Shown piece after piece: positions 13,961 to 34,866 of a DNA stretch of 42,097 nt; positions within the stretch are counted from its first letter, which is position 1; every line of letters starts with the position of its first letter. Origin of the DNA: Mycoplasmatota bacterium. GTDB taxonomy: Bacteria > Bacillota_I > Bacilli_A > Izemoplasmatales > Izemoplasmataceae. Below the pieces are notes generated by a model. It was given only the letters and a program-made list of their open reading frames with translations, made no database searches and was not told where the DNA came from. The DNA lies in contig JAUVLT010000008.1 of NCBI GenBank assembly GCA_030600605.1, positions 1 through 42,097 on the forward strand, in the 5' to 3' direction. Made by a program: the position numbers and the translations under genes.

Positions 13961-14410
13961 ATGTATAAGGAAATAATTATTGAAAATTTAGAGGAAATGA
14001 AGATTTTTGCTGAAGAGATTGGAAAGAGTATATTTCCTGGATTTTTGGTTTGTTTAGAGGGCGATTTAGGGGCTGGGAAGACTACTTTTACGAAGTATTT
14101 TGGTGCTAGTATTGGGATTACTGATAATATCAATTCTCCCACATTTACGATATTAAAAATTTATGAGGGAAAAAATGTTCTTTATCACATGGATGTTTAC
14201 AGACTAATGGGAATTGGAATGGATTATGAATTAGAAGAATATATTTATGGTGATGGGATATGTGTTATTGAGTGGTATAAGAATATTATTGAGAGTATTC
14301 CTAGGGAAAAATTAGTTATTGAGATGGAGATAATTGATATAAACAGAAGATTATTAAAAATTGAAGGAATTGGTAAATATGAAGAAATCGTTAAAAAGAT
14401 TAGTAATTGA
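13961..14410 (+). CDS. tsaE: tRNA threonylcarbamoyladenosine biosynthesis ATPase TsaE
   Basis: The ATPase that drives the TsaB-TsaD-TsaE complex making t6A37 in ANN-decoding tRNAs. Walker A is GDLGAGKTTF (34-43), followed by the family's NSPTFTILKIYEG, the HMDVYRL box and VIEWYKNI. Length is 149 residues, normal. The ATG has an AGGTGATT ribosome site. Its end overlaps tsaB by 32 bases. The partner genes rimI and tsaD are not next to it but at 33284-34725, on the far side of an 18-kb block. Confidence 0.94.
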   Translation: MYKEIIIENLEEMKIFAEEIGKSIFPGFLVCLEGDLGAGKTTFTKYFGASIGITDNINSPTFTILKIYEGKNVLYHMDVYRLMGIGMDYELEEYIYGDGICVIEWYKNIIESIPREKLVIEMEIIDINRRLLKIEGIGKYEEIVKKISN

Positions 14411-14984
14411 TTCAGCAACTAAATTCCTCTACGTGGCTTTATACGAGGATTTAAATTGTCTTGGAAAATATTATGAAGCAGGTAGTAATGATCACTCTAC
14501 TAAAATAATGGTTGAAATTGAAAAAATATTTAAGCTTAATGAGACAAAAGTAGCTGATTTAGATGAAATTATTATTGGGATTGGCCCGGGTAGTTATACA
14601 GGGTTACGCATTGGTGTTGTAATTGCTAAGATGTTTGGATGGAATAATGATATTACTGTAAAAACTATTAGTAGTTTGGCGGTAATGGCAAGCAGTTATA
14701 AAGGAAATAACTTGATTGTCTCTGAAATTGATGCTAGAAGAGGAAATTCATTTATCGGAGTTTATAAAAATAAAGGTAAAGGGCTAATTTTAGCCGATAA
14801 AGAAATTCTTACGAATTTAGATGAATTTACAAATTCATTAAAAGAACCCTATATTATAGTTAGTGAAGGAGAGATGAATTTAGAAAGAATTCTAAATTCA
14901 AGTTTATTGACAGAGGTTAAAGATATTCACTCATTAAACCCAAATTACTTAAGAATTACTGAAGCTGAAAGAAATTTAGGATAA
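14379..14984 (+). CDS. tsaB: TsaB, t6A-complex scaffold (inactive TsaD-like fold)
   Basis: Dimerises with TsaD to form the t6A-transferase core; it has an ASKHA fold without its own catalysis. Visible motifs are RLVIDSATKFLYVAL (about 7-21, usual ILAIDTST) and IIGIGPGSYTGLRIG (about 65-79), the hallmark of TsaB. Length is 201 residues, a little shorter than usual (220-230) at the C-terminus. I choose ATG 14379, 8 bases after AAGGAAT; this start lies inside tsaE, giving a 32-base overlap in another frame. A TTG at 14361 would also be open but has no ribosome site. No RimI gene follows directly, unlike the common order tsaE-tsaB-rimI-tsaD. Confidence 0.9.
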   Translation: MKKSLKRLVIDSATKFLYVALYEDLNCLGKYYEAGSNDHSTKIMVEIEKIFKLNETKVADLDEIIIGIGPGSYTGLRIGVVIAKMFGWNNDITVKTISSLAVMASSYKGNNLIVSEIDARRGNSFIGVYKNKGKGLILADKEILTNLDEFTNSLKEPYIIVSEGEMNLERILNSSLLTEVKDIHSLNPNYLRITEAERNLG

Positions 14985-15061: not shown

Positions 15062-16513
15062 ATGGGGATACTCCGTATAAAGAATCTACATAAGAGCTAT
15101 AAGCATGGAAATAACACCACACATGTATTAAAAGGTATTAATTTAGATATTGAAGAAGGTAGTTTTGTATCGATCTTAGGAAGAAGTGGATCGGGAAAAA
15201 CTACTCTTTTGAATGTAATAAGCACATTAATGGAGTATGAAAAGGGAAAAGTTATTATTGATGGACATGATATTTCAAAATTAAAATCTAGAAAGATAAA
15301 TACTATTAGAAATAATTATATAGGTTTTGTTTTTCAGGAATTTAATTTAGTAAAAGATATGAGTGTTTTAGATAATGTGGCAACTCCGCTTATTTTAAAC
15401 GGATTAAGCTTTAAGGAAGCTAGAAAAAAAGCGATAGTTGCGCTAACTCAAGTAGGACTAGAACAATACACCAAAGTAAGACCACCAGAATTATCAGGAG
15501 GGCAGCAACAACGCGTTGCTATTGCAAGAGCTATCGTAAATGATCAAAAGATTATTCTTTGTGATGAGCCAACTGGGGCATTAGATGATTATACAGCTGT
15601 AGATATTCTTGGAATATTAAAAGAATTATCAAAAACAAAGACAGTTATAATGGTTACTCATGATGAAGAATTTGCCAAGAAGTATAGCGATCGCATTATA
15701 ATGCTAGTTGATGGAAATATTGTAAAAGACGAAATACTAGTTAATAGAGACTTTAAAAAGACTGAGAAAAAGAAACTGAAAGACAGTAGAGCTGGATTTA
15801 TCAATCTATTGATGTATTCATTTTTGAGTATGGATATTGATAAGAAAAAATTTGGTAATACATTTAGAACTTTTAGTATCTCTTTAACTCTTTTTATTGT
15901 AATTGGTGTAATAAATCAAAATTTGGATATTTTTACTGACAGATATTTGAAGTTTTTTGTGCAAAGTGAAGCAGCGGATAAGAATATTATTTTAGATTTT
16001 ATTTATCAATTTTTGGAACAAAATATCTCTGCATTAATTCAAGTAATACTATATATATTAATTGGTTTTTGTATCGTTTCTTATCTATTTGTTTTTACTA
16101 TTAATATTATAAATAAGAAAAGGGAAATAGCTGTATTAAAGGCTTTTGGAGCATCACAAGAAGAGATAGCTATTTTGTTTATGTTAAGACCTATTAAGTT
16201 TACTTTGGCTATTTTTAAAGATACATTAATATATACGTTTATTCTTATTTTAATTATTAATGGAGTTTTTAATTTTCAATCTATTTTGATTGCTGATTAT
16301 TTTGGATTCTTCTTTAATTTTTTAGAGGTTACTTATGGTGTTTTTATATCGTTTATACTTAATAATGAATCAAGTTATATCGATTTTCATATTCACTACT
16401 CTCATATACTGTATATTTTCTTTACTGTTATTGGATTATTCATGATAGGTAGTTTAATACCTGCTTATAAAATATCAAGAAGTAATACGATACGGATGTT
16501 GGCAACAGAATGA
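15062..16513 (+). CDS. MacB-like ABC ATPase-permease fusion 1 (short ectodomain)
   Basis: A half-transporter in one chain. Residues 1-225 are the ATPase, with Walker A GRSGSGKTT (40-48), signature LSGGQQQR (144-151), Walker [13 protein letters not shown] (about 164-175) and switch His in MVTHDE. Residues about 270-470 are the permease with four helices (about 270-287, 325-350, 383-400, 447-467). The FtsX-type coupling helix is KREIAVLKAFGAS (353-365). The loop between helices 1 and 2 has only about 35 residues, so unlike the next three proteins it has almost no ectodomain there; the loop between helices 3 and 4 is about 45. ATG follows GGTGGTG. It overlaps the next gene by four bases. MacB-type pumps act by mechanotransmission on lipoproteins or peptides outside the membrane; the substrate is unknown. 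Confidence 0.88.
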   Translation: MGILRIKNLHKSYKHGNNTTHVLKGINLDIEEGSFVSILGRSGSGKTTLLNVISTLMEYEKGKVIIDGHDISKLKSRKINTIRNNYIGFVFQEFNLVKDMSVLDNVATPLILNGLSFKEARKKAIVALTQVGLEQYTKVRPPELSGGQQQRVAIARAIVNDQKIILCDEPTGALDDYTAVDILGILKELSKTKTVIMVTHDEEFAKKYSDRIIMLVDGNIVKDEILVNRDFKKTEKKKLKDSRAGFINLLMYSFLSMDIDKKKFGNTFRTFSISLTLFIVIGVINQNLDIFTDRYLKFFVQSEAADKNIILDFIYQFLEQNISALIQVILYILIGFCIVSYLFVFTINIINKKREIAVLKAFGASQEEIAILFMLRPIKFTLAIFKDTLIYTFILILIINGVFNFQSILIADYFGFFFNFLEVTYGVFISFILNNESSYIDFHIHYSHILYIFFTVIGLFMIGSLIPAYKISRSNTIRMLATE

Positions 16514-19500
16514 TTGAGTTAAAGAATTTAACAAAAGTATATGAGTCGATAAACTACAATGTAATAGCGTTAAGTGATATTAATTATAAATTTGAAAAAG
16601 GAGAAGTAATTGTTTTACTTGGAAAAAGTGGTAGTGGGAAAAGTACATTACTTAATATTCTTGGTGGTTTTGATCGTGATTACGCTGGTAAGTATATTTT
16701 GGGTGGCGAAAGTATGCGAGAAAAATCAGAAAGAGAAATTGACACTATTCGTAAACGTAAAATAGGGTTCGTTTTTCAACATTATATTTTATTAAATAAT
16801 TTAACCGTATTAGAAAACATTGAATTAGCTTTAAAGGTTATAGGTGTAATTAACTCAGGAAGCAGGAAAAGGGCTTCATTACACGCTTTAAAGCTTGTTG
16901 GACTTAGAGACCATGCTAACAAATATCCTTATGAGTTATCTGGGGGACAGAAACAACGAGTTGCTGTTGCGAGGGCATTTGTAAAGAATCCTGATGTTAT
17001 TATTGCTGATGAACCAACTGCGGCATTAGATTCTAGAACTGGTAACGAGGTTTTAGAGTTATTAAGAGATTTATGTCGTACTAAAATATTGATAATTGCA
17101 ACACATAATAAATCTATCGTAAGAGATTATGCATCAAGAGTTATTGAGCTCAAGAGTGGTTATACTATAAAAAATGAGCTAATAACTGATCCAGGTAAAG
17201 TAAGAGTAGATGAATTAGATTTAATTATTGATAAAGAAATTATTAAAGATGAAAAAATAGTACAACAAATAATTGATATTGAACAAATGGTATCAGAAGA
17301 AAATAAAGAAACGGTATTAAAGGATCTAGGTGTTGATTTAAAGAACTTTAGATTAAATACATCTGATAAATTTGATATTGATGATGAATTGAAAAAGCGC
17401 CTTATTAAAGAAAGAATGAAGAATTCTAAATTAAATACAAGAATTTATCGTTTCTTACAAACGAGTGATGATTTTCATGGTAAAAGAAAATATGCTAATA
17501 AATCATTTCTTAGAAATATAGGACTACATTTGTTTAGTTCTTTAATATTTACAGTTTTCTTACTTACTATTGTTTTTGGGTTAAACTTTGTTACTGAAAC
17601 ATTTGGAGGATTCAACGAAAAAGCCATGTTTACAAGAACAATGAATAATGAAAACGTGTTATTCTTTGCTAGCGAAGAGTTTGAAATGAAGGAAGTTGAT
17701 CAGGATTTGTATCACGATTTAGAGTTTCCTTTCATTAGTGATTTTACCCAAACAGAGATATCATCTAGTAATTTTTTAGATGAATTATTGATTGATCCTT
17801 ATTTTAGATATCAATATGAACAAGATAAAATAATATATATTCATGAAACGCTTCAAGAAAGAGATCTTGAAGATATTTTTGCTATCTATTATAACAATTC
17901 AAGTATAATTTTAAGACAAGAAAATGATGCTATTGTATTTGATGATTTAAAATATACTTATCAAAATATTGTTACTCATCCTGAGCCTTATACTTATGTT
18001 TCAGGATTTATGAATACCGACTTAGACCCTAATTTAATATATCAGTTTAATTATGTTTATAGTGAAAGCAATGAAGATATACTAAATGAACATATGCTTG
18101 AAGGAAGCCGTTTACCAGTAACTAATACTGAGGTTGTTATTCCTGTTGCATATTTGTTTGATTATGAAATTTTAAGCCAAGTAGATTTCAAAGATGAATA
18201 TGGCAATGTAATGGAAATTATTCCTAGCAATATGATAAGCGAGGCTTTTTTAGCGTTAGATGCTAGTGATAGAATGATTGAAATTACGAAGAATATAATA
18301 ACTTTTAGTGATGAAGGGAATTCTTATACGGAAAACTATACTACAGTGACGAGTGAGTTTGAAATTGTTGGATTAGTTAATTTTGATGGTGATATAAATC
18401 CTTTCTTAGAAATGCGTGATGATGTTTTTATTGCGAATAATGCCGGAATTAATTTCTCGTTTATTTTTAGTAATAAAGTTGAAGATTTAATTAACTTTGA
18501 AGTAGTGGATAATGCTTCAGTAGGTGAGTTTTCTAAAAGTATTCAATATGCTGAAATAAGTGTTGAAAACTATGAGATATATAATGTGGATGATATTGTA
18601 AATGATTTTGATGAAACATATATCTTAGAAATCAAACAAAACGTAAGTGATCAGTTTGAAACTTGGATTTTAACTCTGAATACTGCAAGTATACTAGTAA
18701 ATGATTATGTTCAAGATGATTTAGATGGATTAAATCCAGATTCTGCTTTTCTAGATGATTTAATTGATAATACAATGTTTGAAGGATTAACTCATCAAGA
18801 TTTACTGGATTACTATATTGCTCAACATATGTTAGTAACAAGTAGTAAAGAAGAATTCCAATATTTATGTGTAGGATGCAACTTCAATTCAAGATCTTTT
18901 GATAACTTAATAACTGAAGCACAAAGTGCTTACCCACGATTAAAGGCAAGTCTTCAATATGTTGATATGCTTGAAGATTATGGAGACGTGACAAGACTAA
19001 CATATCAAGAAAGCACGAATAGAATTATCTATGAAGAATATGGACATTTGTTTAATAATCAGTTTTATGAAAGTAAAAATGATGATTATTATACTTTAGA
19101 ACTAGTTAGTAGTTTTGAAAGGGAATACGGAAGTATTTTATCATTAGTCTTTTTGGTTGTACCAAGAATGATTATTGAAAATTTCCCTTTTATAGATAAA
19201 GTTATTGGGATGTTAGAAAATCTAGAAGCTAATCCAGGATTTATTAGTTTTATGGAAAGTACAAATTTAGATTTATTAATAAGTAGTGTAAGTACAAATG
19301 CTATTAGAAGTTTAGTAATGGTTGTTTTGTATCTTGTTGTATATATAATCTTGGTTGTAAGTACGATATTATTAAGTGTTGTATTAATAAATTTATATGG
19401 AAATATTTATGAAACAGCTACAAGAAAAAGAGTTAAAGAATTAGCTAGTTTAAGGGTTTTAGGTACTAGTTATGATGATATTCATGATATGATAAAGATT

Positions 19501-19794
19501 GAAAATAGGCGAGTAGCAATTTTTAGTTATCTATGCTTTTTGGGAATATTACTTATTTTAAGTAATTTACACTTATTTACTGATGCCCCTATTAAACATT
19601 ACTATATGCCTTTACTTGGGTTGTTTTTTGATTTTAATTTATTTGATGTGTTTGTCATGAATTATGTAGTTTTAGCAACAGTAACGATAATTTTCTACTT
19701 CTTCATCTATAAATTCATTATTAAGCGTGTATCTACTAAGAAACTTGGTAATATAGATACAATTAAAGCTATTAGAGATGGTGATAACTTATGA
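16510..19794 (+). CDS. MacB-like ABC ATPase-permease fusion 2 (very large ectodomain)
   Basis: ATPase at residues 1-220: Walker [10 protein letters not shown] (38-46), LSGGQKQR (about 143-150), Walker B VIIADEPTAALD and an ATHNKS switch. A charged linker at about 220-330 is followed by helix 1 (about 338-362). An ectodomain of about 560 residues runs from 365 to 925. Helices 2-4 follow at about 931-965, 1001-1021 and 1048-1074, with the coupling motif RKRVKELASLRVLGTS after helix 2. The total of 1094 residues is much larger than MacB (about 650). The ectodomain has one CVGC pair (near nt 18869-18880), which could form a disulfide. It shares four bases with each neighbour, so the ABC genes are coupled in translation. 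Confidence 0.88.
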   Translation: MIELKNLTKVYESINYNVIALSDINYKFEKGEVIVLLGKSGSGKSTLLNILGGFDRDYAGKYILGGESMREKSEREIDTIRKRKIGFVFQHYILLNNLTVLENIELALKVIGVINSGSRKRASLHALKLVGLRDHANKYPYELSGGQKQRVAVARAFVKNPDVIIADEPTAALDSRTGNEVLELLRDLCRTKILIIATHNKSIVRDYASRVIELKSGYTIKNELITDPGKVRVDELDLIIDKEIIKDEKIVQQIIDIEQMVSEENKETVLKDLGVDLKNFRLNTSDKFDIDDELKKRLIKERMKNSKLNTRIYRFLQTSDDFHGKRKYANKSFLRNIGLHLFSSLIFTVFLLTIVFGLNFVTETFGGFNEKAMFTRTMNNENVLFFASEEFEMKEVDQDLYHDLEFPFISDFTQTEISSSNFLDELLIDPYFRYQYEQDKIIYIHETLQERDLEDIFAIYYNNSSIILRQENDAIVFDDLKYTYQNIVTHPEPYTYVSGFMNTDLDPNLIYQFNYVYSESNEDILNEHMLEGSRLPVTNTEVVIPVAYLFDYEILSQVDFKDEYGNVMEIIPSNMISEAFLALDASDRMIEITKNIITFSDEGNSYTENYTTVTSEFEIVGLVNFDGDINPFLEMRDDVFIANNAGINFSFIFSNKVEDLINFEVVDNASVGEFSKSIQYAEISVENYEIYNVDDIVNDFDETYILEIKQNVSDQFETWILTLNTASILVNDYVQDDLDGLNPDSAFLDDLIDNTMFEGLTHQDLLDYYIAQHMLVTSSKEEFQYLCVGCNFNSRSFDNLITEAQSAYPRLKASLQYVDMLEDYGDVTRLTYQESTNRIIYEEYGHLFNNQFYESKNDDYYTLELVSSFEREYGSILSLVFLVVPRMIIENFPFIDKVIGMLENLEANPGFISFMESTNLDLLISSVSTNAIRSLVMVVLYLVVYIILVVSTILLSVVLINLYGNIYETATRKRVKELASLRVLGTSYDDIHDMIKIENRRVAIFSYLCFLGILLILSNLHLFTDAPIKHYYMPLLGLFFDFNLFDVFVMNYVVLATVTIIFYFFIYKFIIKRVSTKKLGNIDTIKAIRDGDNL

Positions 19795-21983
19795 TTGAGG
19801 TAAAAGATTTACAAAAGATATACCCTACTAAAGAACGTGATTTTATTGCTTTAAAAGATCTTAATCTAAAGTTTGAAGCAGGAGAGTTTATCGCTGTACT
19901 AGGGGAAAGCGGTAGTGGTAAAACAACATTTTTAAATATGATTAGTGGTGTGGATTTAAAAACAAGTGGTAAAATCATATTTAACGAACAAGATGTTGAT
20001 AAATTTAATGATGCTAAATGGCGAGAAATTAGAAACCAAGAAATTGGATTCATTTTCCAACGTTTTAATCTTATTGATCACTTAACAGTAATGGAAAATG
20101 TTGTATTACCATTAATTCTTACAGGTAGTGATAATAATATCGCAAGAGAAATTGCTAGAAGATTATTAAAAGAAGTTGAATTAGAAGGCACGGAAGATAA
20201 ATTAGCTAAAGAATTATCAGGAGGGCAAAGACAACGTGTCGCAATTGCTAGAACGATTATTGTTAATCCAACAATAATTTTAGCTGATGAACCAACTGGA
20301 GCGCTTGATAGTACTACAGGACTTGAAATTATGAAATTACTTCAGAGGTTTTCTGATGGTAGAATTATCATTATGGTTACCCATGATGAAGATTTGGCTT
20401 ATAAAAATGCTACACGAGTAATTAGATTACATGATGGTGAAGTTATTAGTGATGAGATTATTAAAGAAAAGAACAGCATTACAAGAGATACTACTAATCG
20501 ATTATTATCATATGAAACTAAGGTTACTAGAAGACTTAAAAGACGCTTGTTAAAGCAATTCCCAGAGATTGAGGATCAACTTCGAGTGGGGAAAAAATGT
20601 TTTGTGCCTTTAGAAAGAAAATATATTTCTAATAATCCAGTATTCACAAGAAAAATTGCGAGAGAGAATTTTAAGCAAAAAATTAATATAAACCGACGTA
20701 TTTTATTGAGTTTTGTTATTAGTATTAGTTTATTATTAGTTGTAAATATTGTCATGAAGAATATTAGTGCTTATAATTTTAATTTATTTGATGTTAATAA
20801 TAATTATGTTCAATATTTAGTTACTGATTATGACGATGAGACAACGGTGATAAATGCTTTAGATAATACATCTAATGTAGACGAAGTGTTACTTTATTAT
20901 GAACATTATGTTCAAGAGATGTATTTAGTGAGTGATGACGGGAATTTACCTATTACTTCTAATGTATCTACTGTTAATAAGGGAGTATTTAGTCCTAAGA
21001 TGGTTACTTTACCATCAAAATCTGAAAATTTCTTTTTAACTAGCCAAATTCTGGTAGGGGGATACCCTACTAATGATAATGAAATACTAGTTAGTAGTGA
21101 ATTTTTACTATCTAGATTTTATGGATATAGTTTAGAAAAAACATATAACCAAAGCACAGTATTAGCAGTTTCTAATTTGAATACTTTTATTGGACAAAAA
21201 CTTTATATATGTGGGGAAACCATTATTTCTAATGGAGCTGTTCCTACAACTGTTATAGATGAAAATTGTTTTGATTATGTCATCAAAGGAGTATTAAATA
21301 GTTATTACAATGGAATTAACTATACAGGGAATATTTATGTTCCTAACAAAGGGTTTACTGATTATATTACTTATTTAAGAGATGAAAAAGATTTTACTAG
21401 AGTGGATGAATATTATGATACTTATCTTTCATTCTATTTAGATGATATTACAGTTGGAATTGATATTACGAGTGTTAGTGAAGAAATTGATGCGACTATT
21501 TCAAATGAAGAATTGCGTGAATATAATGAGACACAAACATTAGAGAATATGCTTTATTATATTTATTTAGCCATATTTATTAGTTTGATTATTATTAGTG
21601 GGACAATTGATATTAATATTGTTGCTAGTAGTGTTGTGTCGAGAATTAGGGAGATTGGAATTTATTCATGTATTGGTGTAAGTAAAAAGAGCATTCGAAA
21701 TATGTTTGTGTTTGAAACATTAGAAATAGCTCTTAGGATATTAGTGATTAATTCAGCTATTTATGTAGGAATAGCCTATGGCTTTAAATTGTTGTATAAA
21801 CGAATTGTTGTTGATTTAACAATTTATGAAAGTATTTTTGGTATTAATGAGATGTTTAGTTATGAAATTTTGTTTAGCATAATGGTTATACTAGGCGCTG
21901 TAGGGTTTTTATTCGCAAGTGTATTGATTCCATCCTTTAAAGCTGCGAATATGAAGGCAATAGATGCATTAAGAAGTGGGTGA
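19791..21983 (+). CDS. MacB-like ABC ATPase-permease fusion 3
   Basis: ATPase at residues 1-225: Walker A GESGSGKTT (38-46), LSGGQRQR (about 142-149), Walker [13 protein letters not shown] and MVTHDED. A linker of about 80 residues leads to helix 1 (about 303-324). The ectodomain of about 260 residues (325-585) is MacB-sized. Helices 2-4 lie at about 586-612, 645-667 and 694-714, with the FtsX coupling motif RIREIGIYSCIGVSKKSI. It ends IDALRSG, the same kind of tail as in fusions 1, 2 and 4 (IRML, IKAIRDG, IDILREV), which fits the conserved end of MacB/FtsX permeases. Start overlaps the previous stop (ATGA); the next gene begins four bases after its stop. Confidence 0.88.
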   Translation: MIEVKDLQKIYPTKERDFIALKDLNLKFEAGEFIAVLGESGSGKTTFLNMISGVDLKTSGKIIFNEQDVDKFNDAKWREIRNQEIGFIFQRFNLIDHLTVMENVVLPLILTGSDNNIAREIARRLLKEVELEGTEDKLAKELSGGQRQRVAIARTIIVNPTIILADEPTGALDSTTGLEIMKLLQRFSDGRIIIMVTHDEDLAYKNATRVIRLHDGEVISDEIIKEKNSITRDTTNRLLSYETKVTRRLKRRLLKQFPEIEDQLRVGKKCFVPLERKYISNNPVFTRKIARENFKQKININRRILLSFVISISLLLVVNIVMKNISAYNFNLFDVNNNYVQYLVTDYDDETTVINALDNTSNVDEVLLYYEHYVQEMYLVSDDGNLPITSNVSTVNKGVFSPKMVTLPSKSENFFLTSQILVGGYPTNDNEILVSSEFLLSRFYGYSLEKTYNQSTVLAVSNLNTFIGQKLYICGETIISNGAVPTTVIDENCFDYVIKGVLNSYYNGINYTGNIYVPNKGFTDYITYLRDEKDFTRVDEYYDTYLSFYLDDITVGIDITSVSEEIDATISNEELREYNETQTLENMLYYIYLAIFISLIIISGTIDINIVASSVVSRIREIGIYSCIGVSKKSIRNMFVFETLEIALRILVINSAIYVGIAYGFKLLYKRIVVDLTIYESIFGINEMFSYEILFSIMVILGAVGFLFASVLIPSFKAANMKAIDALRSG

Positions 21984-21987
21984 TTGA

Positions 21988-24696
21988 ATGAGCCGCGGAG
22001 ATATTATTTTACGCCTTGTAGATGTTGAAAGAGTTTATGAGACAAAAGAAGGACGCAAAATTGTAGCACTTAACAAAGTGACTACGTCTTTTAAGCGTGG
22101 CGAATTCGTGGCAATTGTTGGAAAAAGTGGTAGTGGTAAGAGTACTTTAATTAATATACTTGGAGGGCTTGATAGACCTGATGGAGGAGATTACTTTTTA
22201 GAAGGGAATAACATTGTTAGTATTAATGAGGGACATTGGGATGCTATTCGAAATGAAAAGATTGGATTTATCTTTCAAGAATATCATTTAATTGAATATT
22301 TAAGTGTTTATCGAAATATTGAAATAGCCTTAAAATATCAAAGCACATTAAATAAAAAAACAAGAGCTGCTAAAGTTAAAGACATTTTAACAAAAGTAGG
22401 AATTATTGATCATATGCATAAACTTCCTGGCCAATTAAGTGGTGGGCAAAGGCAACGTGTAGCGATTGCTAGAGCTTTGGTAAAAGACCCTGACATCATT
22501 TTGGCTGATGAACCAACAGGGGCATTAGATCATAAAACTAGTGAAAATGTTATCGAATTAATTAAAGGTCTAAGTAAAGAAAGACTTGTAATTGTTGTTA
22601 CTCATGATAGAGGGATTGCTAATGAACATGCTACTAGAATTATTGAGTTAACAGAGGGTAAATTTACTAGTGATTTAATTAGAGAAGATATTGAACAAAC
22701 GTATCAAAATGTTTATAAGAAGACAAAACCAACAAATTTAAAGTTTAGAGATAAGATTGATTTAACATTTAGAAAAATAAAATCACAACTCTTAAGAACA
22801 TTCTTTACGGCGCTATCTCTAGCTTTGGCGTTTAGTTTTACAATACTTTTTAATGGTGTTGAAAGAGGTATTAGTGAATCATATGATGCTTATTTTGAAG
22901 CGTTAAACAAAGCTAATAGTTATGCATTTAGTTTTGTTCCTGAGGATGAGGCTGTAAGTTTGAATGAATATAATGAAGCTTCAGAGAATTTACTTGATTC
23001 ATTTCAATCATATTTTTATAGTGAAAATAGTGAAATAATAGAGGGGAATAGCGTAGATGTGGCGTATAGTTTGGAAAGCAGAGGAGTAGAACATGTTTCA
23101 AATATACCAACAAGGCCTGATTTACTTTCGGAATATAAACTAAGATTAATTGATGTAGCTGAGACACAAGACTATAGTTATAGTGATCTATTTATTGGAG
23201 ACAGCAATTATCCTTATGAGTTTGATGAAATTATGGTTACATCAAAATTTTATCGTCAATATACAGAGTTAAGTGATGATGTTGTTAATTTAAATTCATT
23301 TATTGGTACAAAAATATCTATGCCAATTTATAGTTTTGATATTTATACGGGAATATACAATACTGAAGAATATTTAAATCTTTTAATTGAGTTAGAAAAT
23401 GGTGATATTGTAGAAGATAACCCTTTAATAACACAAGAAACTTTAAAAGTAAGATATTTAAAAATAAACATTCCACAGTATTGTTATCATTATGAAGATA
23501 TTAATAGTTACTACCAAAATCAATGTGATCAAATCATAGATGATGAGAAATATAGTAGATATTTTGAAAGTATTGACGAATATATTGAATATGTTGATGG
23601 ATTTAAGGAACAAGTAAACAATATTGATCCAGACTATTTTGATATTTTGTTTAGAAGTGGAGCTGTCTTTTACGTTATAGATGAAAATGAAATAGAAGGA
23701 TATATTCCTCCAGGTGGAGAATATTATATTGAGAGAGTATATCGTGCTCTTTATGAAGAGGCAGATGATGATTATGATGAGGGATTATCTTATTTCAAAG
23801 AAGGGGTTTTTAAAGATCAATTGTTACAGAAAGAAATGATTGTAACAGGAATTATTGAAAATGATAATGAAGCAATTGTATATATGGATTACGAAACTTA
23901 TAATAAGTTATTTGTTTCTAGTCCGGGAGTAGATGTTTTAAGTGGGTATTATAGTATTAACTTAGAAAGTGGTATTAGAAAAGATTATGAACCTTATGAT
24001 ATAGCGGTTGAGTATTTTGCTATACCTTTACAAGGTGTGAGTAATCAGTATCAAGATGATTATTCGATTATTAGAAAAGAATATATTGAACAAGGAGAAG
24101 TTTGTTCAATATATAGTCTTGATAATGTAATTAATGATAATACTGATTTTGAAGATGTAAGGCTGTTAGGGGATGTATTCACTATTACTGATTATTCAAG
24201 TTGTAAGATGAATACTGAAAGCTATCATTATTTACAAAGTATTAAAATATTATTTGGTGTTTTCTTTAACGTGTTGATGTTTATTAGTATTATTTTCTTC
24301 AATATATTACTTCAAGTAATTTTAAGTGAAAGAATATCTGAAATTGGTGTCTATAGAAGTGTTGGATCCACTAGTAAAGATATTAAGTATTTATTCTTTA
24401 TTGAGATATTGTTTGAAATAGTTTTGGCTTCTATTATGAGTATTATTATTATCTACTTTGCTAACCAAGTTGTTAATGCAATGTTTTTATCAGCGATTAA
24501 CCAGGGAAGTGGTGTTATTACGTTTGCTGGAATGAAGCTGAGTATTGGTAATGATAATTCTATTACAAATATCAGTATGTTTAATTTGGCATTCTATATT
24601 GTTGTTGTATTCATAATGATTGGTTTCTTAAGTAACCGAAATGTTAGTAAATTGGCTAATACTAAGCCAATAGATATATTGAGAGAGGTGGAATAG
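21988..24696 (+). CDS. MacB-like ABC ATPase-permease fusion 4 (large ectodomain)
   Basis: ATPase at residues 8-235: Walker [10 protein letters not shown] (45-53), LSGGQRQR (about 150-157), Walker [13 protein letters not shown] and VVTHDR. Helix 1 is at about 269-291 ([17 protein letters not shown]), followed by an acidic, Tyr-rich ectodomain of about 460 residues (292-752) with several cysteines (near nt 23482, 23524, 24103 and 24202). Helices 2-4 lie at about 753-778, 805-828 and 868-885, and the coupling motif is [18 protein letters not shown]. The stop TAG is followed at once by the ATG of the giant lipoprotein gene, so the pump and the surface protein are made from one message. Confidence 0.88.
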
Positions 24697-27600
24697 ATGA
24701 AAACAATTAGAAGATATCTTGTTGTATTAGTAATTTTACCGCTTATAGTCTTTTTGGGAAGTTGTAGTAAAACGGCTGAAAATGAGCATTTACCGGAATA
24801 TTGTCAAACTTATTCTGGGTTTATGTCTACGGCTAGTAAAGATTTGTATGATTTAATTGGAGATATAAATAGATTTAATTATCTAAGTGTTATTTCAGAG
24901 ATTGAATTAGAATTTGAAGTTGATGATCCAAATATTGAAATTGATTTAAATGGTATTCAATGTTTCCAAAATCTTACATCTTTAACGTTAATTGGGCAAA
25001 GTTTTAAAGATATTAGTCCGATTAGTGCTCTTAAAAATATTCAAAAGATTGTTTTAATTGATACTTCTATAGTAAGTATTGATAGTTTTAAAAATTTAAG
25101 TAAAGTTAATGAATTAACCATTTCTAATACTAAAACACTACAAAGTGTTGACGGTGTTGAGGAAATGACTAAACTAACGAGGCTTGATTTAAGTGATAAT
25201 GGGATTGTTAATATTGAAGGACTAAATAATTTGGTTAATTTAACTGAATTAATTCTTTCGAATAACAAAATCACATATTTCCCTTCAATTAATCAATTAG
25301 AGTTATTAGAAACCCTTGATGTTAGTAATAATGAAATAGTGCAGTTAGGGGAAGATCTAAGTGGTCTAAGAAACTTAAAAGAGTTTATTGCTAGGCAAAA
25401 TAACATATGTGATTTAAGCACACTAGATGATTTAGTAAGTTTAGAAATTCTTGATTTAAGTGAAAATGATTTAGGATGTGGTGGACTTGGAGCTAGTCCA
25501 GACTTTTCTAGTTTAGAAAATGCTCCTAATTTAAGAGAAATCTATTTAAATGATAATAATTTAACTTCAATAGAGGATTTAAGAGGAAAAACATTAATAC
25601 TTCAAGTATTACATTTAGAAAATAATAACTTAACTGATATTACCCCTATTGGAAACTATACAACTATTAGAGAATTAGTCTTATATAACAATAATATCGT
25701 TAATATTAGTGATTTAGCAGGTATGATAAACGTTACTGAAATTGATTTGTCTGAAAATAGCATAGTTGATTTTTCTAACTTAAGAGATATTCCTAATCTT
25801 GAATCTATTGATTTAAGTAATAATAATATCGATTTTATTCCTGATATGAGTGATTCTTGGGCACATTTAGAAGTTCTTGATTTAGATAGTAATAATTTAA
25901 CTGACACTTCAGGAGTTAATGGACATGCCAATTTACAGACTTTAATACTTTCTAATAACGGAATAACTGAATTAAGTGGAATAAGTAACTTACCATTACT
26001 TGAAAATTTAGTTATGGTATGGGAAATACCTGAAGTTATCCCAGATGACTTTGTGTTTGAAGATAACCCAAATAGTATTAGTATAATTCGAGACTCATTT
26101 AATAGTTTACCTTTACTATTATTGACAGATGAAACTGATACATTTGATTTTGGATTTGAACTTGGACCACATGTTGAAATTTATAATTCAATAAGTGATA
26201 TTGATAATATTGGTACAATTGATTTTTCAGATATGGATATTGATTTTATTGATGGAGATTCAATCAATTTGGATAATTTACTAGCAATTGATGTTAGTGA
26301 TAATAATATTGCAGATATTTCCTTTATCTTAGGTAATCCCAGTCTTCAAGTATTGAATATTTCGGGTAATAGTATTAATAATTTATCAGTAATAAGTGGA
26401 GTAGATACGAGTGATCTTGATAATTTAGATCAAATAAATGCAGCGAATATTGTAACTTCAAACGACTTGGTTGATGCATTTATCGAGTTACCCGAATTGT
26501 CATATTTAGATTTAACAGGAACAAATATCACATCGATTAATAATTGTTTCAATAATTTAGATGAATTAACAGATTTGGGTATTGATTCACCAGTATTAGA
26601 AAGAATAATTGATTCATTTAATAATTTGTATGCTGTTCATACAGCAGATAACGTTATTTCATTTGTAGATAGTAAGATTGGTGAAATAAATGGTAGTTTT
26701 AACAATGGACTTTATGAACAAATTATTATTCAAGATAATATTGCTGGTTTCTCGGAAACAAAAATAATTGATTCGTTTAATAATCTAGATAGTGCGAATG
26801 ATATTAGTATTTTAATAACTGGGAATGATTTTAAAGTTGTTGAAGGTAGTTTTAATAATACAACAGCAGTTACTTTATTCCTTGGTGATAATAATATTGG
26901 AACAATTACAACAAGTTTTGATGGTTTAGCAGTGTCTGATGAGTTGAATCTTCAGAATAATAAATTAGAAACATTAGTAGGATTAAATAATGCATTTTTG
27001 ATTCCATCACTAAACTTGAGTAACAATATACTTACTACAGTTAGTTTCTTAGATGCTGTTACAGGGCTAGAAAGTTTAGATATTTCTAATCAATATGATA
27101 GTGATTTAGATGTACTAACACTAACTGAGATTGATGGTATTAATAATATGCTTTTATTGACAGAAATAGTCATGGAAGATATGTTGATAACTTCAATTGA
27201 TGGGTTTAAGAATATTGGGATAGATAGTTTTATATTAAGTAAAACTGATAATAATAACGGAACTATTGTTTCAATTTCTAGTACATCGTTTAGTAATTCA
27301 TTAATTACAGATTTAGACTTAGGAGGACATCAATTTACAAACATTGATTTTTTAAATAATTTTCCACAGTTAGTTGATTTAACAATCTCTATAAATATAG
27401 CTGATTTAAGCGACTTCCAGGATATTATATTTGAAAGCACATTAGATTCTTTATCACTTGAAAATATTTCAGAAGTAACTGATTTTAGTTATTTGAATGG
27501 TTACGATGCTTTAACATTCTTTTACTTCTCAAGTGAATTAACGTTAACAATTAATAATTTTAGTGGTTTAGATTCATTAACAAGTTCTAATTTTGCGGAT

Positions 27601-30600
27601 AGAGCTTCTATTACGACGATAAATAATAGTTTTAATAATATGAATAGCATGTCCTTAACGTCTAGTTATTTAAGTCTATTTACTAGTTTAACTGATGTAT
27701 CTACAAGTTTTAATATTTATGAAAATACTAATAGTGTATTTATTAGAGGTAATTTAAATATTGTTGATAGTTTTAATAATGTTGGAACACTAACCCTTGA
27801 TAGTGGGGCTGAAACAAGTCCTAATTTTGATACATTAAGTTTCGATTTAATGCATACAATAAGTATTGATAACAGTTACTACGATAGTTATAATTTCTTG
27901 AATGGCTATACATTGTTATCATCGGTAACAATTCAAGAATTAGAAAAAAACATGGTTGGATTAGTAAATAACAATATAACATCTATAGTTATTGCGAATG
28001 TTGATGCAACTGTATCAATAATAGATATTGATATAGCAAGTAGTGGTAGTCTAATTTTTAATAGTAATACGGCTATTAATATAGCGGTTTCTGGGGATAA
28101 TATTGAATATGATATGAGTTCAGTAGGTGGAGTCGTTACTTTATCTGTGGATAATAGCGCTTTAAGTCTTAATGGCTCATTAAATACATTAACTGTTGAT
28201 AGTGTTAATTTAACAACTACAACATTTGATGAAATTGAAACAACAAATATGACTTTTAATACTAATTTACTTAATCAAATATTAAGAACTAATTCTTCAG
28301 CATTTAACGCAACAACCATAAATATTAATAGTTTAAGTGTTGCTTTAGATATTCATGTTGAAGCTAACACACTTAATATATACGATAATAATGCAACAAC
28401 ATATGATTTAATTGTTGAAGGCGGGAATGTTAATTTATTCACTATTGAAGCTGATTTAACAGTTGGTTTTACTGGGGAAGATTTAAATGTTGCTTATGAT
28501 AGTCTTGAAACAATGGATATTAGTGGTAATATTAACAATTTAATAATTGATTCGAATGTAATTGATGATGTTAACTTAAATAACACAATTGTTAGTAGTG
28601 TGGATATTACTTCAGAACAAAGTATTATCAATGTACTGGGAACTGGCATTGTAGAGCTTCAAATAACTGATAATAACATTACTACTCCTACATTAACAGT
28701 TGGATCAGCAGATGTAACGATAACTTCAACATCTTCTGCACCATTAACAATTGATGTTAATGCCGGAAGTCTTAATTTAGAAATAGTGAATCTACCTAGT
28801 ATCGTCTTTGTAACTACTTCATCACTAGGATCTTTAGATTTAACTGATGGAGCAAATGTTGATACATTGACATACAATAATGCAAATATATTAAGTACAC
28901 ATTTAGTAACTAATCAAGCTATTCTTTCTGTTACTGGAACTAATAGTACAGGATTTGATATTGATGCAAATAATTTAACAAATGTAACCATTAATTTGGC
29001 GGGAGCAACATTTGACATTGATGCTTTAACTACAGCTATTGCTGCAGATATAGTAGCTACTACAGTTGCTATTGATAGTCCTAATTTAACAGATATTACA
29101 TTAACGGCTTCTTCAATTATTGGAACATTTGATATATTGAATAGTGTCTCTGTTGATACACTTAGTTTTGCTACTGCAAATATTAATAATCTAAATGTTA
29201 ATAGTGGTGTAATTGATATTTCATTATCATCTATAAATACACTGGAAACCGCATTACAAGGTGATAATTATAATACTATATTAGTTGATGTTGGGACAAA
29301 TAATATATCATTTGTTTCAGATAAAACATCTAGTATAGCATTTGATTTAACAGCAAGTGATGTTAGTATAATTACTACTTTAAATACAGTTACAATTAAT
29401 GATACTAGTAATATTGTTAATTTAGCTATTGCTTCGGATTCATTAACAAATGTTCTTGGAGGAAGTGCTACTATTACTACACTTGATGTTACAGGAAGTT
29501 CTGCTTCATTAAATGTTACAGGAAGTAATCTAACTTCTTTAAGTGTGAGTGATGTTGATATTACAACATTTGACGCAAATGTTGCTTTAGCTACCTCTGT
29601 TGAATTAAATACTAGTGCATCAACATTAGTTACAATAAATACAACAAGTGAAAACATCACCATCACTGGTAATTCTGATATGTCGATTACTAGTCCAACA
29701 TTAGTTGCTTCAACAATAAATACTGCAAATAATAGTGTTGTAACCTTTAATCTTAGTAAAGCTGCTTTAAATTATACTTTGAATGGAGTAATGGGGGACG
29801 CAGTTGTTAATTCAAACACAATGGATAACTTTGTTGTTGGAACAGGCTTAATTTTAGATACATTAGAAATAATTAATGATAATATTACTACATTAGACCT
29901 GAATCCAGGTACAGTTAGTAATTTGGAAATCACAAGTACAAATACTACTATGAATATACTGGGTAATAGCTTAGTTACAGTAATTATGAATATGAATAAT
30001 TTAGATAATATGACGGTAAATAGTACTGCAAGCGGAGCGATAGTTAACGCTTCAACATTTGCATCTAGTTTGAGTGTAAATGGGGCAATCGATAATGTTA
30101 TTGTTGTTGGGGGAAATTTAAGTTCTGTTGATTTGAATGGAACTATTGGCAGTGTTGATATAAGTGGAAATAGTTTGACAAGTGTTGATTTAACTAATGC
30201 AAATTATAATAATTTAGTAATAGATAGTGATGTACTAGCAAGTTTAGATACATCAGCAAATAGTGTAACTACTAGTTTAGAGGTAGCTACTACTATTAAT
30301 GATTTTAATCTAACATCAAATACTCCTAGTATTACCTTCTTAGGTGATTCTTTAGATAATCTAAATATTACTACTTCCTCTTCTGTGATGAATTTATCAA
30401 CAACTAATGATTCTGTGACATTGAATGGAGCAACAACTGATTTTATTATTACAGGAGCTAACTTAAATAATATTCTTGGTACTGCTAAGACTGTTGATAT
30501 TACAAATGAAACGGATGTACTGGGGTTTGTATTTGATTTAACCGCTAATTCAGTAACTTTTACTAGTAATACATCAACTAGTTTATTATTTACTGGTGGA

Positions 30601-31545
30601 ACAACAATTCCTACATTGAATTTGGAATCTTCATCAATTACTACAATTAATACTGATAATATAACTGTTAATACACTGAATTTTATTTCAACGGGTACAG
30701 TAACACCAGTGATTGATACATTAAGTGAAACTGTAGACATTTCAAGTACAAGTAATGATACAGTTACTTTGAATTATTCAGGAGTAAATGCATTAAATAT
30801 TTCTCTAGATAGTTTATTACTAGCAAATATTAATATTAGTAATGCTCATGTTGTTAATTTTGATGGAAATAGTACGAATGTTGAATTAAGTGGATCAAGT
30901 ATTGATACTGTGGACACAAATGCTTTATCAATAGCAAATAAATATACAATGAACGATACTTTAATTACTAATTTAGATTTCATTAGTACAAACTTATTAT
31001 TGAATATTGTTGAAATAGAAGTAAATACTCTTAATACGGCAAGTATTGAAACGATAATTACTAAATTAGAGGGTAGTGGAGTTACTCTATTTAGCCCTAT
31101 TACTTTAGCGAATATATATGATTACTATTATGATGATAAATATCTTGAATTAACTAATCAAGAAGTTCTTGACACTTTACGTTATCAAGGATTTAGAGAT
31201 GCAGCTATAACTAATGCATTTGATGAAATTAGATTAAACGAGTATTTTGATTATGTTGAGGATACTACTTTAAATACGACAATTAATGAGCAAACATATT
31301 CAACAATGCAAGTGTATTATGATGGTTATTTGGTATCAATTGGGGAAACAGAAGAATCACTAATAGCTGCGAATGATGCAGCATTTGTTCAGGCTATTAA
31401 AGATAGCATTCAAGCTACTTTAGATAAAACAGTACTTGTTATTGATGAACTTGATTTAAACACAAGTGTTGAAAATAGTATTATTGATGATTCAACGATA
31501 TATGCAACAACAGAAAGAGATAATATTGGATTCAATATTGGATAG
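24697..31545 (+). CDS. Giant surface lipoprotein: LRR domain plus long Asn/Thr/Ser-rich solenoid
   Basis: 2282 residues. A lipoprotein signal is clear: KTIRRY, a hydrophobic stretch, then lipobox LGSC with the lipidated Cys23, so the protein is anchored outside the membrane. Residues about 90-445 hold some 16 leucine-rich repeats of 22 residues, of the form LxxLDLSxNxIxxI (repeat starts near 93, 115, 137, 160, 182, 204, 227, 249, 279, 302, 324, 346, 368, 391, 413 and 435). Residues about 460-1040 continue as degenerate LRR-like turns with a recurring SFNN motif. Residues about 1085-2115 are a polar beta-solenoid-like region (Asn, Thr, Ser, Asp alternating with Ile, Leu, Val). Residues about 2120-2282 form a different, charged, mostly helical end domain. 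It starts directly at the stop of ABC fusion 4. Likely roles are adhesion or binding at the cell surface, with the ABC proteins acting on it or its ligand; that is inference. No sortase or wall-anchor signal is seen. Confidence 0.9.
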   Translation: MKTIRRYLVVLVILPLIVFLGSCSKTAENEHLPEYCQTYSGFMSTASKDLYDLIGDINRFNYLSVISEIELEFEVDDPNIEIDLNGIQCFQNLTSLTLIGQSFKDISPISALKNIQKIVLIDTSIVSIDSFKNLSKVNELTISNTKTLQSVDGVEEMTKLTRLDLSDNGIVNIEGLNNLVNLTELILSNNKITYFPSINQLELLETLDVSNNEIVQLGEDLSGLRNLKEFIARQNNICDLSTLDDLVSLEILDLSENDLGCGGLGASPDFSSLENAPNLREIYLNDNNLTSIEDLRGKTLILQVLHLENNNLTDITPIGNYTTIRELVLYNNNIVNISDLAGMINVTEIDLSENSIVDFSNLRDIPNLESIDLSNNNIDFIPDMSDSWAHLEVLDLDSNNLTDTSGVNGHANLQTLILSNNGITELSGISNLPLLENLVMVWEIPEVIPDDFVFEDNPNSISIIRDSFNSLPLLLLTDETDTFDFGFELGPHVEIYNSISDIDNIGTIDFSDMDIDFIDGDSINLDNLLAIDVSDNNIADISFILGNPSLQVLNISGNSINNLSVISGVDTSDLDNLDQINAANIVTSNDLVDAFIELPELSYLDLTGTNITSINNCFNNLDELTDLGIDSPVLERIIDSFNNLYAVHTADNVISFVDSKIGEINGSFNNGLYEQIIIQDNIAGFSETKIIDSFNNLDSANDISILITGNDFKVVEGSFNNTTAVTLFLGDNNIGTITTSFDGLAVSDELNLQNNKLETLVGLNNAFLIPSLNLSNNILTTVSFLDAVTGLESLDISNQYDSDLDVLTLTEIDGINNMLLLTEIVMEDMLITSIDGFKNIGIDSFILSKTDNNNGTIVSISSTSFSNSLITDLDLGGHQFTNIDFLNNFPQLVDLTISINIADLSDFQDIIFESTLDSLSLENISEVTDFSYLNGYDALTFFYFSSELTLTINNFSGLDSLTSSNFADRASITTINNSFNNMNSMSLTSSYLSLFTSLTDVSTSFNIYENTNSVFIRGNLNIVDSFNNVGTLTLDSGAETSPNFDTLSFDLMHTISIDNSYYDSYNFLNGYTLLSSVTIQELEKNMVGLVNNNITSIVIANVDATVSIIDIDIASSGSLIFNSNTAINIAVSGDNIEYDMSSVGGVVTLSVDNSALSLNGSLNTLTVDSVNLTTTTFDEIETTNMTFNTNLLNQILRTNSSAFNATTININSLSVALDIHVEANTLNIYDNNATTYDLIVEGGNVNLFTIEADLTVGFTGEDLNVAYDSLETMDISGNINNLIIDSNVIDDVNLNNTIVSSVDITSEQSIINVLGTGIVELQITDNNITTPTLTVGSADVTITSTSSAPLTIDVNAGSLNLEIVNLPSIVFVTTSSLGSLDLTDGANVDTLTYNNANILSTHLVTNQAILSVTGTNSTGFDIDANNLTNVTINLAGATFDIDALTTAIAADIVATTVAIDSPNLTDITLTASSIIGTFDILNSVSVDTLSFATANINNLNVNSGVIDISLSSINTLETALQGDNYNTILVDVGTNNISFVSDKTSSIAFDLTASDVSIITTLNTVTINDTSNIVNLAIASDSLTNVLGGSATITTLDVTGSSASLNVTGSNLTSLSVSDVDITTFDANVALATSVELNTSASTLVTINTTSENITITGNSDMSITSPTLVASTINTANNSVVTFNLSKAALNYTLNGVMGDAVVNSNTMDNFVVGTGLILDTLEIINDNITTLDLNPGTVSNLEITSTNTTMNILGNSLVTVIMNMNNLDNMTVNSTASGAIVNASTFASSLSVNGAIDNVIVVGGNLSSVDLNGTIGSVDISGNSLTSVDLTNANYNNLVIDSDVLASLDTSANSVTTSLEVATTINDFNLTSNTPSITFLGDSLDNLNITTSSSVMNLSTTNDSVTLNGATTDFIITGANLNNILGTAKTVDITNETDVLGFVFDLTANSVTFTSNTSTSLLFTGGTTIPTLNLESSSITTINTDNITVNTLNFISTGTVTPVIDTLSETVDISSTSNDTVTLNYSGVNALNISLDSLLLANINISNAHVVNFDGNSTNVELSGSSIDTVDTNALSIANKYTMNDTLITNLDFISTNLLLNIVEIEVNTLNTASIETIITKLEGSGVTLFSPITLANIYDYYYDDKYLELTNQEVLDTLRYQGFRDAAITNAFDEIRLNEYFDYVEDTTLNTTINEQTYSTMQVYYDGYLVSIGETEESLIAANDAAFVQAIKDSIQATLDKTVLVIDELDLNTSVENSIIDDSTIYATTERDNIGFNIG

Positions 31546-31554
31546 GAGGTGCTT

Positions 31555-32409
31555 ATGAAGAAATTATTTTTATTGCTTAGTATATTAATTCTTAGTGGTT
31601 GTGGAATGCTTGATAGAGGGAATTACAACAAAAATCGCTCAGGATACGTACTTAATGGAAACATGATTGTTAGTTATCACACTAATTCGATTGGTGAAAT
31701 CGATGTCTTTCAGATTGATCAAGTTATGTCTTTCTTCGAAGCGCTAGTTTATACTGATTTTGATTTAACTTTACTTTCTGAAAATGATATTCTTAATTCA
31801 TTTGTAAGTGTAGCTGAATTAGATAGTTGTGGTATAGATTCAACTGTTGTTATACCGAGATTTATAAGAGTACAAGATAATACTTATTTCTATAATGTTC
31901 GAGATAACGGCTATTGTACTTTTGATGAATATACATTCTATGATGAGGGATATACTGAACTAGTTGATTACACTGTGAGTGAAGTAAGTCCTTTAGAAAA
32001 GATTAATGTTACATTATTTAAAGACGCTGATTTTATGATTAACACTTTTGAAGTTGTTGTGTTTATTGAGAATATTTATTATGATGATAATCTTGAATTA
32101 TGGGTAAAAGAGATTGTTACAGCGTTACCAATGTCTTTAAAACAAGCGGGATCGATATATGAAGATAATATTAGTTTTGTTGAAGAGATAACTGTAATTG
32201 AAAAATATGTACTTGATAATCAAAGTATAAATCTATTAGTATTAAAAGAAAATTACCAAGATGAAGATGTAAATAATATTTGGGATGAAACCACTATTGA
32301 AGCGTTAGGTAGAGACCACGAGGTAATTAAAAAAGTAAGACTATACCAAACCCAAGATATTTTAGATATTATAAATGATACTTTGGGTAGATTGGGGATG
32401 TTTCAATGA
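31555..32409 (+). CDS. Small lipoprotein A of the ABC-solenoid block
   Basis: Signal peptide with lipobox LSGC near residue 17 (KKLFLLLSILILSGCGML), so lipid-anchored outside. The mature part, about 265 residues, is acidic and beta-rich with no family I recognise. It shares its opening with the next gene product: here YVLNGNMIVSYHTNSIGEID, there YLVSDDGNIIIDYKTNGNGE, followed in both by an IDxxxxxxxxxxY-type stretch. The two are therefore likely paralogues. I choose ATG 31555, placed after AGGAGG at 31544-31549; an in-frame GTG at 31549 lies at the end of that site. The gene begins 9 bases after the solenoid gene and overlaps lipoprotein B by four bases. Confidence 0.8.
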   Translation: MKKLFLLLSILILSGCGMLDRGNYNKNRSGYVLNGNMIVSYHTNSIGEIDVFQIDQVMSFFEALVYTDFDLTLLSENDILNSFVSVAELDSCGIDSTVVIPRFIRVQDNTYFYNVRDNGYCTFDEYTFYDEGYTELVDYTVSEVSPLEKINVTLFKDADFMINTFEVVVFIENIYYDDNLELWVKEIVTALPMSLKQAGSIYEDNISFVEEITVIEKYVLDNQSINLLVLKENYQDEDVNNIWDETTIEALGRDHEVIKKVRLYQTQDILDIINDTLGRLGMFQ

Positions 32410-34829: not shown

Positions 34830-34866
34830 AGGGTTGTATAAGAAAGAATTGAATGGAGGAATATCA

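Follow-up and report, generated by a model that had tools for sequence, protein, structure and literature searches.

A stretch of 42,097 nucleotides from a Mycoplasmatota bacterium of the order Izemoplasmatales (assembly GCA_030600605.1, contig JAUVLT010000008.1, positions 1 to 42,097; hereafter called the window) encodes, at positions 15062–24696 of its forward strand, four consecutive fusions of an ATP-binding cassette (ABC) ATPase with an FtsX-like permease, which we call F1 to F4. Together with the genes for a giant leucine-rich-repeat (LRR) lipoprotein and two smaller lipoproteins, LP1 and LP2, they form a seven-gene cassette that recurs in related genomes. We propose that F1–F4 constitute an array of mutually dependent type VII half-transporters that is functionally tied to tandem MreB proteins, a reading to which we assign a probability of about 0.48. 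The type VII superfamily itself is already known; our literature search found no description of this gene set, a fixed four-subunit array of that type.

Four fused half-transporters with graded ectodomains

The four genes are tightly packed. F1 (15062–16513, 483 residues) overlaps F2 (16510–19794, 1,094 residues) by 4 bases, F2 overlaps F3 (19791–21983, 730 residues) to the same extent, a gap of 4 bases separates F3 from F4 (21988–24696, 902 residues), and the gene for the giant lipoprotein follows F4 directly. According to Pfam and the predicted topology, each protein comprises an N-terminal ABC_tran ATPase, a first transmembrane helix (TM1), an ectodomain and TM2–4, and F2 carries a linker of about 110 residues ahead of TM1. 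The Walker A motif, Q-loop, LSGGQ signature, Walker B glutamate, D-loop and H-switch histidine are present in all four ATPases of the window, which share 39–44% pairwise identity, and the catalytic motifs are also present in every aligned orthologue row. The signature varies in places: its Q is replaced by E in both F2 and F3 of f10, a family of another order of the same class, and F2 reads ISGGQ in two genomes (G060 and G061); we take these variants to be functional. The run of four fusions with intact ATPase motifs, as read in the first-pass annotation of the window, is thereby confirmed.

The ectodomains of the four subunits differ widely in size. By hydropathy they span 37, 586, 270 and 470 residues in F1 to F4 (about 35, 585, 270 and 470 in round figures), against initial estimates of about 35, 560, 260 and 460. 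Among the orthologues, window included, the ranges are 28–44 residues for F1 (14 sequences), 533–608 for F2 (15), 261–316 for F3 (13) and 458–492 for F4 (13). Since the sizes are similar across the orthologues, the grading is a conserved trait and not due to chance. In two genomes, G047 and G081, F3 is divided into two overlapping or adjacent frames (L014 7516–9697 and L018 4215–6464), which reflects either a sequencing error or a real inactivation.

An N-terminal ATPase fused to a four-TM FtsX-type permease, the arrangement that characterizes type VII ABC proteins, is found in all four subunits, with the permease of F2 assigned by topology. An FtsX-type coupling helix had been ascribed to all four. 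The Pfam FtsX C-terminal domain exceeds its cut-off in F1, F3 and F4; in F2, where Pfam yields no FtsX domain at E ≤ 1, this assignment stands on the TM topology and a short profile match to F4 (5.1e-5 over 48 columns).

The fold was modelled for F4 from 13 sequences. The model is usable from about residue 270 onward, with confidence mostly 70–95 in the ectodomain, mostly 50–78 in the TM part and poor in the ATPase part; the F2 model was unusable (mean predicted local distance difference test score 62, predicted template-modelling score 0.42). A structure search with the F4 model retrieved MacB (5gko, E 2.8e-10), YtrF and LolE, and a second structural comparison returned the same families, with Z 13–16 in the best rows; against the separate periplasmic domains, Z was 8.3–8.4 for MacB and 9.6 for LolE. 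The neighbours expected for a type VII protein are MacB, LolC/E, YtrF, FtsX and BceB, a list checked with F4 only, and the modelled F4 fold fits the type VII (MacB/LolCDE/FtsEX) superfamily. The TM profile of F1, compared with solved structures, matches LolF best (E 5e-5). The label “MacB-like” given by the first-pass annotation is therefore apt for the architecture and, in F4, for the fold, but does not extend to MacB orthology, since the NCBIfam equivalog PRK10535 scores 177–224 bits against a cut-off of 966. Moreover, MacB_PCD has no match in the window's genome at E ≤ 0.001, and the Pfam scans of the neighbouring genes, which covered all but a few small open reading frames, revealed no MacA or TolC partner.

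The small ectodomain of F1 is at odds with a published generalization. In PMC5985334, type VII “mechanotransmission” proteins are described as working outside the membrane, with no solute moved through it, and the Porter subdomain as present, to its authors' knowledge, in all members. In 14 of 14 F1 sequences only 28–44 residues separate TM1 from TM2, which leaves no room for a Porter domain, and F1 thus departs from that description; its assignment to type VII rests on its FtsX domain and its ATPase. A conserved Porter-less half-transporter contradicts the generalization and points to hetero-oligomers.

Subunit ancestry and pairing

In the ATPase trees, F1, F2, F3 and F4 each form one clade with 100% bootstrap support that spans both orders, and the four are therefore old subunits rather than recent local duplicates. 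Local duplication had been raised at the outset as a possible origin, and in its recent form it is rejected. Ten rows that failed the motif pattern were left out of the first tree set, and all were added to the next; for the final trees and approximately unbiased (AU) tests, the 55 quartet rows were reduced to 31 and two long-branched singles were excluded. A single clade of all four subunits is rejected (AU 0.036, smaller set), as are F1+F2 (AU 0.008) and F1+F4 (AU 0.003) as sisters.

The placement of the four lineages is informed by a separate ABC-FtsX fusion pair, which we observed on contig C54 of the window's genome (L149:676–4927; 660 and 754 residues) and in other f1 and f10 genomes. 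The shorter frame comes first in all five fusion pairs seen whole (660/754, 670/808, 685/756, 681/772 and 697/736), and one f10 genome (G146) has an extra frame of 724 residues beside its pair. F1 and F3 fall together with the pair's first gene (support 93/86; 13 such genes, drawn from f1 and f10). F2 and F4 group together with support of 75/84, and together with the second genes (12 rows) with 75/83, or 95/86 when fewer pairs are included. Long-branch warnings apply to F2 with F4 and to p660 with F1. Four of the 17 “alpha” rows sat among the single fusions and lacked a partner in the flanking sequence; the partner in G076 had failed the motif filter. From this placement we read the operon as alpha-beta-alpha-beta, with the beta type of F2 and F4 weakly supported, and in each neighbouring pair (F1–F2 and F3–F4) the smaller ectodomain comes first. 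The membrane-part profiles give mixed affinities: F1 is nearest F3, F2 nearest F4, F4 nearest F3, and both members of the separate fusion pair are nearest F3. The alpha/beta split is accordingly not cleanly reproduced by the membrane parts.

How do the four subunits assemble? One answer is that they are four independent homodimers with separate jobs, co-transcribed by chance. Every subunit has all the catalytic motifs, and single ABC-FtsX fusions, presumably homodimeric, exist in the same genomes, which favours this answer. On the other hand, F1–F4 are never seen apart from one another in the loci that we read, the near-bald F1 has no room for a Porter-type domain, and the gene order alternates between alpha and beta; we consider four homodimers unlikely. 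Heterodimers, suggested in an obligate form by the first-pass annotation, draw on the alpha/beta placement of the ATPases and on the constant company of the four genes. Three observations leave the question open or count against them. The evolutionary-rate residuals (9 genomes) are highest for F1–F3 (0.83) and lowest for F1–F2 (0.32), which speaks against the pairing of F1 with its neighbour F2; F3 and F4 as sisters are not rejected (AU 0.082); and a degenerate ATPase site, which would have been proof of heterodimers, occurs in none of the aligned rows with regard to the catalytic residues. As judged from the sequences, F1–F4 likely form alpha-beta heterodimers, with the choice of partners unsettled.

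Distribution of the cassette and of MreB

We searched 90 genomes of the order, 49 of which belong to the window's family. The permease part of F1 is present in 12 of the 90 and the cassette in 13; the thirteenth carrier, G059, is a 53% complete genome with F4, the end of the LRR gene, LP1, LP2, rimI, tsaD and the downstream genes w636, w773 and w343. The F1-bearing relatives that have names include Candidatus Izimaplasma and Izemoplasma genomes. As far as the contigs reach, the genes keep the order F1-F2-F3-F4-LRR-LP1-LP2 in the loci that we read, the part from F1 to the LRR gene in all 12 F1-bearing genomes, and all seven genes are whole in six loci, window included. The flanks are equally constant where the contigs reach, with tsaB before the cassette and rimI-tsaD after it. 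The gene w773 occurs in 13 of the 90 genomes, which are exactly the 13 with the cassette.

In five cassette-free relatives (G048, G049, G052, G058 and G078), tsaB, rimI and tsaD are adjacent. The tsaB–rimI gap of G052 encodes, just before rimI, a short acidic tail like the one that ends LP2 in the window: 22 bases match at 95% (E 3e-5, small search set), and a comparison by eye shows identity at 13 of 19 residues. The LP2 of G053 has a different end, without this tail. Given its position before rimI, the tail of G052 is probably the remnant of the 3′ end of LP2, left behind by one loss of the cassette.

The quartet also exists outside the order. A search of 395 sampled genomes with the F1 profile identified full-length homologues in four f10 genomes (E 7e-18 to 8e-21); the quartet is present in 4 of the 8 sampled genomes of f10's order. 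Elsewhere outside the window's family the profile gave six weak matches, in f21 and f15 genomes; five of these loci, all but that of G178, were inspected and contain single fusions. The f10 loci have F1-F2-F3-F4 in the same order and with the same size grading, and an LRR lipoprotein gene follows F4 in three of them, the contig of the fourth (G118) ending inside F4. Three genes upstream of the f10 F1 align by profile with w773 (9.7e-10), w343 (8.3e-8) and w205 (1.5e-5); this trio thus precedes F1 in f10 and lies beyond tsaD and w636 in the Izemoplasmas.

Next, we compared the cassette with MreB. Genes for MreB (E ≤ 1e-30) are present in 16 of the 90 genomes, among them all 12 with F1, which have three copies each (two in G045). 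They are unlinked to the cassette: either a different contig carries them, or hundreds of kilobases lie in between. Across the order, Fisher's exact test gives p 8e-11 with relatedness ignored; here G050, which has MreB but whose assembly yielded no cassette region (no F1, tsaB, tsaD, w773 or strong F4 match), was counted as negative, and it was excluded from the family-only comparison. For independent contrasts we built a tsaB+tsaD tree of 51 genomes, comprising 44 of the 49 family members and 7 others; G050, G066, G067, G070 and G075 of the family and 34 of the 41 other genomes are absent from it. The cassette state changes five times on this tree, and MreB is concordant in 5 of 5 independent contrasts (p 0.0625); in a minority of random contrast pairings, four agree and one shows no difference. 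G052 has neither cassette nor MreB, and neither F1 nor MreB was found in G006. The five cassette-free relatives are 75–91% complete, and missing sequence alone is therefore unlikely to explain the absence of MreB from all of them. Among the f10 genomes, those with the quartet (G146, G118, G096 and G154) gave 7, 8, 5 and 5 strong hits to MreB, respectively; both quartet and MreB are missing from G107 and G162.

Several observations weigh against a tie between the quartet and MreB. G059 has the cassette and no MreB hit. In the order, MreB occurs without the quartet in G011, G013 and G031 (single copy, perhaps contamination), and in f10, G129 and G138 have six MreB hits each and no quartet. The value of p 0.0625 is the least possible with only five contrasts. 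Since several genomes have MreB and no quartet, any dependence is one-way at most: the quartet implies MreB, and not the reverse.

The same genomes, and the small number of independent contrasts, would suit an explanation in which a single lifestyle, such as that of larger or shaped cells, decides whether quartet and MreB are both retained or both shed, with no physical coupling. Such an explanation has to contend with the concordance of all five contrasts. Furthermore, the negative genomes are not clearly smaller, their assemblies measuring 1.2–1.8 Mb against 1.0–2.1 Mb for the positives, uncorrected for completeness. The unrelated, patchily distributed pair p660 does not follow the pattern, either: it is found at E ≤ 1e-100 in three positive and three negative family genomes, in a search that gave some hit in 23 family genomes and listed 7 without. 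We regard a shared lifestyle as a real possibility, if somewhat doubtful, and favour a functional tie of the array to MreB.

The surroundings of the MreB genes deserve mention. On contig C11 of the window's genome, a gene for an EAL-domain protein with a weak GGDEF match (L082:14964–16412) directly follows three tandem MreB genes, and is itself followed by a gene for a protein of 882 residues without a Pfam match. EAL homologues follow MreB in three other Izemoplasma loci that we read, in two of which a protein of about 880 residues comes next. A GGDEF-domain protein is also encoded in the window at 4569–5726 (Pfam E 4.4e-13), 9 kb upstream of the cassette. The EAL-domain neighbour may point to a link of cyclic di-GMP to MreB in wall-less cells. 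In the f10 genome G146, a protein of 2,355 residues with a hydrophobic stretch at each end is encoded near two MreB genes (L091:5756–12823, minus strand).

Candidate partners, the proposed machine and known systems

The genes of the cassette, its tsaB, rimI and tsaD flanks and the w773-w343-w205 trio all lie on the forward strand. The giant lipoprotein (24697–31545, 2,282 residues) consists of an LRR region and a long region rich in N, T and S. LP1 (31549–32409) and LP2 (32406–33266) each have a lipobox visible in the sequence and are distant paralogues, the LP2 of G059 matching LP1 at 23% identity (E 1.5e-8). Housekeeping genes flank the cassette: tsaB upstream (14361–14984), and a rimI-like acetyltransferase gene and tsaD downstream (33284–34725); tsaE, tsaB and tsaD pass their NCBIfam cut-offs. 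After tsaD comes w636 (34834–36744), a protein of about 630 residues with a single TM helix, relatives of which also exist in cassette-free genomes; G048 and G049 have a short, diverged relative (about 210 residues) at this place. Next is w773 (36840–39161), with a CvpA-like four-TM N-terminus (29.0 bits against Pfam CvpA, just under the cut-off of 29.3) and a large domain that, judging from the loop charges, is probably extracellular. The trio is completed by w343 (39176–40207), a membrane protein, and w205 (40200–40817), an acidic protein without predicted TM helices; in the f10 trio, the second gene is a homologue of w343 and the third a probable homologue of w205. Rfam gave no match at gathering scores, promoter-like sites numbered 139 against 141 in shuffled sequences, and terminator-like sites 6 against 3.7. 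An anti-phage defence system was considered and rejected, as the defence search gave ATPase-type matches only.

The presence of an LRR lipoprotein gene after F4 wherever the contig reaches, together with the structural matches of F4 to LolE and YtrF and of F1 to LolF, might suggest a Lol- or YbbAP-like system whose job is to extract, load or display lipids or lipoproteins, the giant LRR lipoprotein above all, and whose link to MreB is indirect. However, from the lineage we expect no second membrane to which lipoproteins could be delivered, and the joint absence with MreB would be unexplained; we hold this to be rather unlikely.

We instead envisage the MreB-tied array as follows. F1–F4 would form two alpha-beta heterodimers, F1:F2 and F3:F4 as a first guess. 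By analogy with the superfamily, ATP would close the ATPase pairs and zip the TM helices together, moving the ectodomains with no solute carried across the membrane. The gene order and the co-occurrence suggest that the LRR lipoprotein, or the ligands it binds, would be set in motion at the surface by the non-equivalent ectodomains, and LP1 and LP2 may work with the ectodomains on the outer face of the wall-less cell. Co-occurrence would make the w773-w343-w205 trio a set of further partners that link the machine to the cytoplasm, where MreB sits. The whole could be a machine of the cell envelope whose action across the membrane is to pass on or sense force, or to remodel the surface.

A bolder version, which we consider improbable as it stands, is that this is an ATP-driven trans-envelope force machine, in which two heterodimers, one with a Porter-less half, pull on the giant LRR lipoprotein outside and the CvpA-like trio connects them to tandem MreB filaments inside. 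The machine would then take over from peptidoglycan the anchoring role on which MreB-dependent shape or surface movement relies, in the wall-less Izemoplasmas and in the related PBP-bearing order. The Izemoplasmatales group is described as wall-less in PMC8397711. A search for penicillin-binding protein (PBP) transpeptidases found none in any of 7 Izemoplasmas and 2–4 in each of the 8 f10 genomes. One organism argues against the movement part of the proposal: Xianfuyuplasma coldseepsis zrk13, which apparently carries the cassette, is described in the same text as coccoid, without a flagellum and non-motile. The corresponding text on another member of the order, Hujiaoplasma nucleasis zrk29, gives it as coccoid and non-motile as well (PMC10470597). 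Cell shape, simple in both, does not tell the two strains apart. X. coldseepsis zrk13 appears to provide a cultured carrier, and the roughly ten envelope genes of the conserved set, which in close relatives is missing along with MreB, offer concrete candidates for MreB partners.

How does the array compare with known systems? MacB shares the N-terminal ATPase fused to TM1, an ectodomain and TM2–4, and is the closest match of the F4 model. It differs in that the quartet has four different subunits, one of them, F1, without a Porter-sized domain, and shows no orthology to MacB by NCBIfam.

BceB has 10 TM helices, and the BceAB system has a separate ATPase and a two-component partner. BceB is also a single polypeptide with two permease domains, whereas the quartet consists of four-TM halves fused to ATPases. 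Its possession of one ectodomain for two permease domains, as given in PMC5985334, is the nearest precedent for the near-bald F1, and a bald half beside an ectodomain half could recall a BceAB-like module for sensing or resisting antimicrobial peptides. We find this very improbable: no two-component genes were recognized by eye among the open reading frames of the window, although no dedicated search was made, and the lack of a PBP transpeptidase match in the tested Izemoplasmas makes protection of lipid II unlikely. According to the same source, LolCDE and YbbAP have a permease made either of two unlike halves or of two units, with two ectodomains; here, in contrast, the ATPase is fused, the subunits number four, and an outer membrane is not expected in the lineage.

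Two further systems bear on the proposed tie to MreB. In Bacillus subtilis, the hydrolase of the type VII ABC system FtsEX-CwlO is under joint regulation with the MreB isologues (PMC3817527), a precedent for such a system and MreB isologues acting in one pathway. FtsEX-CwlO controls peptidoglycan hydrolysis, whereas the tested Izemoplasmas gave no PBP transpeptidase match. The role and the anchor of MreB in wall-less cells are an open question in Spiroplasma, Haloplasma and their relatives. Seven MreB proteins are reported for Haloplasma contractile. Models of Spiroplasma swimming build on MreB together with fibril, and a contraction of a related kind is proposed for H. contractile, which has no fibril (PMC8432965); the text consulted mentions no ABC quartet for either. 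What these wall-less relatives have in common with the carriers of the cassette is the possession of several MreB paralogues.

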